Below are positions 8,322 to 9,486 of a stretch of 19,318 nucleotides of DNA, piece by piece. Position 1 is the stretch's first letter, and each line of letters opens with the position of its first letter. This stretch comes from a bacterium (GTDB lineage: Bacteria; UBA9089; CG2-30-40-21; SBAY01): positions 1 through 19,318 of the forward strand of contig JBFLYA010000058.1 in assembly GCA_040757115.1 (NCBI GenBank). Direction: 5' to 3'. Below the pieces are notes generated by a model. It did no database searches, had not been told where the DNA came from, and was given only the letters and a program-made list of their open reading frames with translations. Made by a program: the position numbers and the translations under genes.

Positions 8322-8395
8322 GGGGAATTTTTCGACCGGGTGCGTGTAAAATTTATGGGTAAAAATATTCTGAGAGTTAGACCTGAAATTAAATC

Positions 8396-8545
8396 AAATA
8401 TCAAATATCAAAATGCAAAATTACAAATCAAATTTCAAAAAGGACTTCAAATATTTTAATGCTGAAATGTAGTAGATAGTTTATAGTAGATAGTTGAAGG
8501 ACTATAGACTATAAACCATAAACTATAAACCATAAACTATACACA
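8396..8545. repeat. Low-complexity repeats (AAATATCAA units and ATAGTTTATAG inverted units)
   Basis: 8396-8450 is a string of short A-rich units (AATATCAAATATCAAAATGC and variants). From ~8469 to 8540, AGATAGTTTATAGT units face ACTATAAACCATAAACTAT units, making an imperfect stem. A 60-codon reading frame (8277-8459) crosses this region but is made of repeat sequence and is not called. No gene is seen between 8201 and 8964. Confidence 0.55.
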
Positions 8546-8562
8546 AATTTTACATACACCCT

Positions 8563-8831
8563 TTTCGACCTATGCGGTTAGAAATTACAAGCAAATTTCC
8601 TCAAACCTGAAAGGTTTGACTTTTACATAACCGTAGATAAAATCTACGGAGAGAAGAAAAACTCCTGCTTACTACTCAACCCTGAAAGGGTTGAATTCTA
8701 ACCATGGCTTACATTCGACCCTTTCAGGGTCGAGTTTTGCGGGCGTTTATTTCCGTAGATTGCATCTACGGTTATTTAAAATTCGACGCTTTCAGCGTCA
8801 ATAACCTAAAACCTAACCGCACAGGTCGAAA
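8563..8831. mobile_element. 269-bp nested palindrome with six hairpins and terminal inverted repeats
   Basis: Outer ends TTTCGACCTATGCGGTTAG (8563-8581) and CTAACCGCACAGGTCGAAA (8813-8831) are inverted repeats matching at 18 of 19 bases. Between them lie six hairpins arranged symmetrically about CCATGG (8702-8707): 8601-8619, 8631-8649, 8676-8694, 8715-8733, 8753-8771 and 8785-8799. Five have 8-bp stems with 3-nt loops (19 nt); the sixth is a 6-bp version. Hairpins 1, 3, 4 and 6 share a GAA (or complement TTC) loop and differ in stem sequence by paired changes; 2 and 5 share the CCGTAGAT stem. The left and right arms are reverse complements of one another apart from small differences. No open frame of interest is present. 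It looks like a non-autonomous mobile or REP/BIME-like element; no transposase is in the window. Confidence 0.8.
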
Positions 8832-8859
8832 TTTTTCTAAAAAAAATTTAAAAAAACTC

Positions 8860-8888
8860 TTGACAGAAATTCTTTTCTATGGTATAAT
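8860..8888 (+). promoter_or_regulatory. Consensus sigma-70-type promoter of the pilin gene
   Basis: TTGACA (8860-8865), exactly 17 nt, then TATAAT (8883-8888), preceded by TGG (extended -10). This is a perfect match to the housekeeping consensus and predicts strong transcription starting near 8895, about 70 nt before the pilin ATG. A small hairpin (AACAAACAC ... GTGTTGTT, ~8898-8918) lies at the start of the leader. The six-hairpin palindrome ends 28 bp upstream of the -35 box. Confidence 0.85.
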
Positions 8889-8964: not shown

Positions 8965-9486
8965 ATGAAAAAAGGTAAAGGATTTACCCTTATTGAATTA
9001 ATGATAGTCGTTGCTATCATAGGCATCTTAGCCGCAATTGCTATCCCAAGATTTGCTCAATTGATTGATAAGGCAAGAGAGGCGGGAGCAAGAGGAAATT
9101 TAGGTGCCTTAAGAAGTGCAATTGCTATCTATTATGGAGATAATAAAGGACAGTGGCCAGTGAAATTAGATACAAATCAATATACAGTTCCAGTTACTGG
9201 CGGTGAACTTTTCCCCGCGTTTATCAAGGGATATATGGCTAAACTTCCGAAAGCGACATTACAACGGGCTGTTCCTCATAATAATACTGCGACTATTGAC
9301 TATGTTACTACACACCAAAATGATTATGTTTCTCAGACTCAAGTCTCAAACAGTCACAAGGGAGGATGGATATACTCGTCAAATAGTGGTGATTGTCGAA
9401 TTAACTGCGCCCACCGCGACACAGTATCAGTTAATACACCCAATTCATCCCTTTATTACTCAAATTATGGGCATGAAGAACCCTAA
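8965..9486 (+). CDS. Type IV pilin / GspG-type pseudopilin
   Basis: 173 residues with a textbook prepilin N-terminus: a short basic leader MKKGKG, cleavage expected after Gly6, then FTLIELMIVVAIIGILAAIA with Glu at position +5. The hydrophobic helix anchors the precursor in the inner membrane and packs the filament core. The globular part (~35-173) has the GspG-type arrangement NLGALRSAIAIYYGDNKG (45-62), LPKATL and GGWIYSSNSGDCR (133-145); Cys144 and Cys148 could form a small disulfide. A strong ribosome site (AAGGAGGTG, 8946-8954) precedes the ATG. It is a single-gene unit, with a consensus promoter upstream and a strong terminator 40-80 nt downstream, which suggests a highly expressed filament subunit. 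The assembly ATPase, platform and prepilin peptidase genes are not in the window. Confidence 0.92.
   Translation: MKKGKGFTLIELMIVVAIIGILAAIAIPRFAQLIDKAREAGARGNLGALRSAIAIYYGDNKGQWPVKLDTNQYTVPVTGGELFPAFIKGYMAKLPKATLQRAVPHNNTATIDYVTTHQNDYVSQTQVSNSHKGGWIYSSNSGDCRINCAHRDTVSVNTPNSSLYYSNYGHEEP

Follow-up and report, generated by a model that had tools for sequence, protein, structure and literature searches.

What kind of element is the 269-base palindrome at positions 8563–8831 of the window (the whole 19,318-nucleotide stretch of DNA that was analysed), what moves it, and which part of it is kept in evolution are the questions that this locus raises. The initial annotation regarded it as a non-autonomous element whose folded structure is itself the functional signal, read, for example, by a REP-associated Y1 (RAYT) transposase or by a structure-specific nuclease. 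The explanation favoured here, with a probability of roughly 80%, is that it is a MITE that would be moved in trans by an ISKra4-like transposase and that carries a separate six-hairpin cassette between its ends.

The element and its insertion site

The mobile element proper comprises 263 bp (8566–8828), including both 16-bp ends; the outer TTT and AAA of the palindrome are bases of the target duplication and lie outside the mobile ends at 8566 and 8828. The six hairpins and the inverted-repeat ends, with 18 of 19 positions matching, are present as initially described, and the DNA fold of the element is far more stable than that of shuffled sequences (−69.8 kcal/mol vs. −24.6 ± 3.6; z −12.5). 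All six hairpins have three-base loops, with stems of at least 8 bp in five of them and 6 bp in the last, and they follow the order A-B-A and then inverted A-B-A (Table 1).

Table 1. Positions of the element's parts, of the duplicated target, of the nested second MITE and of the neighbouring promoter
Feature	Position	Strand	Remark
Left copy of target duplication, GAATTTTT	8325..8332	.	Present once at the empty site (G001:C107)
Second, unrelated 224-bp MITE, ends GGGTGCGTGTAAAATTT / GGGTGTATGTAAAATTT	8338..8561	.	9-bp duplication; interior repeated in G001
Left terminal inverted repeat, CGACCTATGCGGTTAG	8566..8581	+	End-sequence search
Hairpin A1: TCAAACCT, loop GAA, 8-bp stem	8601..8619	+	Pairing kept in 96.7% of cells
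Hairpin B1: CCGTAGAT, loop AAA, 8-bp stem	8631..8649	+	Compensatory changes at four pairs
Hairpin A2: TCAACCCT, loop GAA, 8-bp stem	8676..8694	+	99.2% paired, almost invariant
Hairpin A3: TCGACCCT, loop TTC, 8-bp stem	about 8715..8733	+	A-type on the opposite strand
Hairpin B2: CCGTAGAT, loop TGC, 8-bp stem	8753..8771	+	
Hairpin A4: GACGCT, loop TTC, 6-bp stem (8 bp in some copies)	8785..8799	+	Compensatory changes at two pairs
Right terminal inverted repeat, CGACCTGTGCGGTTAG	8813..8828	-	End-sequence search
Right copy of target duplication, AAATTTTT	8829..8836	.	7/8 bases equal to left copy GAATTTTT
Perfect sigma70-type promoter, TTGACA-17-TATAAT	8860..8888	+	Drives type IV pilin-like gene at 8965

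The genomes compared are fragmented metagenome assemblies. Within them, the element is far from single-copy: its end (CGACCTGTGCGGTTAG, or the 19-base form that includes the outer bases) has 138 matches within two mismatches in its own genome (G000), where a reversed-pattern control gives none. Full copies number four in this genome (97–100% identity, in addition to several partial ones) and five further ones in the sister species G001, with copies of the two genomes 96–100% identical overall, and G008, from a different family within the phylum, has about 40 copies at about 82% identity. The non-autonomous, multicopy nature proposed by the initial annotation is thus borne out. The exact 19-mer end occurs in many Desulfobacterales and also in Parabeggiatoa, Electrothrix, Chloroflexi, and Clostridia; a terminal-inverted-repeat scan of viral contigs gave no match. 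Copies at contig ends in the genome G004 proved to be another MITE.

Insertion duplicates 8 bp of target. Identical 8-mers flank 43 of the 119 MITEs with these ends, compared with 2.1 expected from shuffled flanks, and the duplicated target is AT-rich and roughly symmetric (AAAATTTT). In the sister species, contig C107 lacks the whole insertion, and both flanks adjoin there as ...GGGGAATTTTTCTAAAAAAAATT.... At the locus itself, a second MITE (ends GGGTGYRTGTAAAATTT) landed exactly at the first element's left end and duplicated TTTTCGACC, now found at 8329–8337 and 8562–8570; owing to this second insertion, the left target duplication lies far from the element to which it belongs. The element is short and non-coding, has terminal inverted repeats and many copies, and is accompanied by a target duplication and an empty site. 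Thus, as far as sequence can define it, the element is a MITE, which is shown by the copies of its ends, the target duplications, and the empty site in the sister species.

Mobilization and choice of landing site

An autonomous copy comes from a Parabeggiatoa contig, from which a 1,629-bp IS with ends identical to those of the element and a two-frame transposase was recovered by joining two neighbouring tiles; it is without a clean target duplication. Its transposase matches the ISKra4 model NF033572 (E 3.4e-20). Long end-pairs were sought in eight other genomes, and none was found. Since the scores of the transposases against this model (72.6, 79.5, and 48 bits; E 3e-20 to 9e-13) fall below the curated cut-off of 205, the enzyme is filed as ISKra4-like only, i.e., as a diverged ISKra4 relative. 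Homologues with 45–58% identity are encoded at nine places in G000 and in G001. At three contig ends of the element's own genome (C65, C340, and C211), the reading frame of the transposase terminates approx. 10 bp within ends identical to those of the element, and in G001:C211 the C-terminus of the transposase lies beside a slightly different end. No complete IS with exact CGACCTGTGCGGTTAG ends is assembled in the own genome, where copies are cut by contig ends. A complete 1,660-bp transposase-bearing relative is present in G000:C221, with ends CGACCTGTGAAATAGGT and a perfect 8-bp duplication (AAAGATTT), and the MITE L327 has the ends of this C221-type IS and a partial hairpin core where the transposase would be. 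IS66 was rejected as a source: IS66 genes are present but their ends differ, and a 2.8-kb element at C91 has ends of its own.

Guerillot et al. assign transposases of this type to p-MULT 4, within the Mutator superfamily, and describe p-MULT elements as having 8–9 bp direct repeats and a terminal cytosine (PMC3942029); the elements analysed here have both the repeats of 8 or 9 bp and the terminal cytosine. Some groups, the ISKra4 group among them, are described as inserting upstream of sigmaA promoters (PMC3942029). The likeness to ISKra4-group MITEs extends to terminal-C inverted ends, 8-bp duplications, a related transposase in the genome, and promoter-upstream targeting, whereas the distant match of the transposase to the ISKra4 model and the interior, a structured cassette common to unrelated MITE frames, set the present elements apart. 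An ISKra4-like transposase of this kind (p-MULT 4, Mutator superfamily) would move the MITEs in trans by acting on their ends and would direct new copies mainly to sites immediately upstream of sigma70 promoters. Insertions are enriched at such sites: promoters beside these ends are directed outward in 32 cases vs. 6 inward, with a peak of 14 cases in which the −35 box is 5–14 bp from the end, and a perfect promoter lies 31 bp downstream of the window copy (Table 1). It should be noted that promoter-adjacent insertions are a minority of sites and that the Desulfobacterales set has no outward-promoter bias (5 vs. 4).

The partner that the initial annotation proposed, a Y1 transposase reading the hairpins of a REP- or REPIN-like element, is by comparison a most improbable one. 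REPs and REPINs likewise consist of short hairpins between genes, commonly paired in inverted orientation and present in many copies, the hairpins of the element are also in an inverted pair arrangement, and Y1 genes are present in G000, G001, G004, and G013. However, a search at E ≤ 0.001 gives no Y1 gene in G008, where copies are most numerous, and in the four other genomes the loci encoding Y1 are free of core hairpin motifs. Nor is an unpaired GTAG or CGTC tag, as defined for REPs (PMC3733652), conserved at the foot of the hairpins; the GTAG that does occur is part of the B stem and is missing from the G008 copies. The six hairpins, terminal inverted repeats, and 8-bp target duplications are further differences from RAYT-associated REPs, and the last two point to a DDE enzyme. 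Y1/RAYT mobility in these genomes is thus refuted by the lack of Y1 in G008, by hairpin-free Y1 loci, and by the 8-bp duplications, and what stands of the earlier interpretation is a non-autonomous multicopy element with preserved hairpins.

The idea that hairpin structure is itself the mobility signal also has to be given up. It is the terminal inverted repeat of 16 bp that serves as the signal, since hairpin-poor MITEs with the same ends spread as well. Only about ten of the 35 interior families with these ends are clearly hairpin-rich, and a family of 176–190 bp with the same ends (16 members) has no hairpin enrichment (z +2.0). This suggests that the ends alone suffice for movement, and because hairpin-free MITEs share these ends and spread, the cassette would not be needed for transposition. 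In G000, the loci L009, L037, L048, and L051 belong to the hairpin-free 176–190 bp family, which has many copies. Three other MITEs with the same ends (L026, L024, and L027; 341 and 531 bp) contain an apparent remnant of coding sequence (RFADDEVLNQIEDVTRNIEMVIEE).

Preservation of the hairpins

Structural preservation was assessed on 46 distinct cores. Local pairing within the six hairpins holds in 95.8% of cells, with 39 compensatory cells distributed over six base pairs; both values exceed those of all 500 shuffles, and local pairing falls to about 43% when partner columns are slid by one. Pairing between the arms, in contrast, holds in 80.6% of cells and comes with 3 compensatory ones, which is no better than in shuffles. 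The expectation that hairpins would be preserved across copies is therefore confirmed, while describing the element as a single large palindrome fits it only in part: the identity between its arms is about 73%, and what is preserved is the six local hairpins rather than arm-arm pairing. The CCATGG at its centre is not conserved either, with GATGGAT at that place in the G008 copies. On the evidence of the aligned copies, evolution preserves six local hairpins and not a giant cruciform. The proposal of a single large cruciform extruded by the entire element, which would be the signal for a structure-specific nuclease, draws some support from the lowest-energy single-strand fold, which includes some arm-arm pairing; with the figures given above, it is very unlikely, and the whole-element cruciform was rejected as the conserved structure.

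Preservation of the hairpins may be due to selection or to palindrome correction. Correction of palindromes by template switching is a known mutational process, and the compensatory changes could stem from template switching within the hairpins, without selection. In that case, the hairpins would be functionless and replication itself would keep their stems matched, and indeed the changes fall in hairpins with very short loops. Nonetheless, an A-C mismatch at columns 34/48 persists uncorrected in about half of the copies, which argues against rapid correction. Moreover, the order, loop type, and spacing of the hairpins are also kept across phyla, which goes beyond the matching of stems, and other interiors with identical ends are without hairpin enrichment. 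Taken together, these observations make a purely mutational origin unlikely.

One cassette in different ends and in distant phyla

It is usually the ends that define a MITE, whereas what lies between them is regarded as debris. In the present case the conserved part is the interior, i.e., hairpins under compensatory change that are common to different transposon ends and distant phyla. The hairpin core occurs in at least four inverted-repeat frames (CGACCTGTGCGGTTAG, GTATGTGTTTAGCG, GTAACTATTCAGC, and CGACCTGTGAAATAGGT), and L316 may represent a fifth. In the GTATGTGTTTAGCG frame, 8-bp duplications (GAACCTTT and AAAGCCTC) are visible in the flanks, and the CGACCTGTGAAATAGGT frame, with ends of the C221-type IS, has a partial core and perfect GATTTTTT duplications. 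Homology among complete cores stops at the outermost hairpins. The tree of cores groups them by frame and not by host, and therefore each frame acquired the core rarely. By eye, two other interiors seem to be common to two frames each (L030 with L066/L312, and L053 with L216/L271), so that exchange of interiors among MITEs may be general here. In the former case, a GCTCC-hairpin interior is found in L030 (253 bp) and in L066/L312 (288–290 bp), seemingly in two different end-frames.

These findings raise the possibility that the six-hairpin cassette is a repeat that spreads by itself and has come to reside in different MITEs, whose ends would be but one vehicle. This would account for a core present in at least four frames with homology that ends at the outermost hairpins, and also for the arrays of G166, most of which have unrelated flanks beginning right at the outer hairpins. 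However, an enzyme for such movement is neither known nor found, empty sites that cleanly lack just the core were not seen, and the recent spread in G000, G001, and G008 follows the MITE ends. In addition, unrelated interiors also cross frames, and a general exchange of MITE interiors would explain the pattern as well. Independent spread is accordingly a possibility to be taken seriously, albeit on balance a doubtful one; if the cassette is a passenger, a route of spread of its own is to be expected. In the open-access literature, no report of such a cassette or of MITE interiors shared between ends was found.

A covariance model of the core matches 9 of 290 genomes, including G205 (E 1e-18) and G166 (E 2e-13), with E-values that are rough. 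With the same rough, home-made model, Desulfobacterales MITEs L089 and L140 are matched at E of about 1e-7 to 3e-8; they have CGACCTGTGCGGTTAG-type ends, the A-B-A|A-B-A order, and conserved CTGAAAG/CTTTCAG tops on different stems. In G205, from another phylum, the loci L380–L387 are six-hairpin arrays, some of them bounded by inverted sequences (GGAGTTTTCGT or GGAGTTTCCCC).

Halves of the Desulfobacterales arrays match the Rfam family Acido-Lenti-1 (RF01687; L140 46.5 and L089 45.9 bits, threshold 37 bits), an orphan motif described in 2010 (PMC2864571). Its 8-bp hairpin, linker of approx. 12 nt, and 5-bp hairpin with a TTC loop correspond to the B2-A4 layout, whereas the Rfam entry is that of an sRNA gene and not of a mobile-element part. 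The window gives nothing in an Rfam scan at the default threshold, its below-threshold microRNA matches were dismissed as chance hairpin matches, and the window copy has no match to RF01687 even at E ≤ 10; for this reason, its link to Acido-Lenti-1 runs through shared ends and architecture. Of 386 genomes, 22 contain matches to Acido-Lenti-1, frequently arranged as inverted pairs with a distance of about 150 bp, alongside tandem and single ones. It is quite conceivable, although a little short of an even prospect, that the cassette, architecturally conserved across phyla while its stem sequences are not, is a self-standing passenger adopted time and again by unrelated transposons as their interior, and that Acido-Lenti-1 represents a piece of cassettes of this kind and not a stand-alone RNA gene. 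The cassette connects an unexplained Rfam family with mobile DNA, and both can thereby be put to the test.

As for its role, the cassette would act as RNA or as single-stranded hairpins, on either strand, and would buffer transcription at promoter-proximal landing sites, making insertions tolerable. Such an insulator function is put forward tentatively; if the cassette is active as RNA, an effect on transcription at adjoining promoters is to be expected. Terminator-like T-runs are more numerous in the window copy than expected (3 vs. 0.2), but they are not conserved in the arrays of other phyla, which weakens the case for an intrinsic terminator as the conserved function.

Two further observations concern Acido-Lenti-1 within the phylum of the window. 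In the own genome, a similar hairpin pair that falls just under the Rfam threshold lies within a nest of two MITE frames (L407; G000:C32, about 24480–24525). G013 (MAG JASEGY, 'bacterium isolate Yes70-08'), which belongs to the same phylum and is without the core, has at least 15 Acido-Lenti-1 matches, including several inverted pairs.
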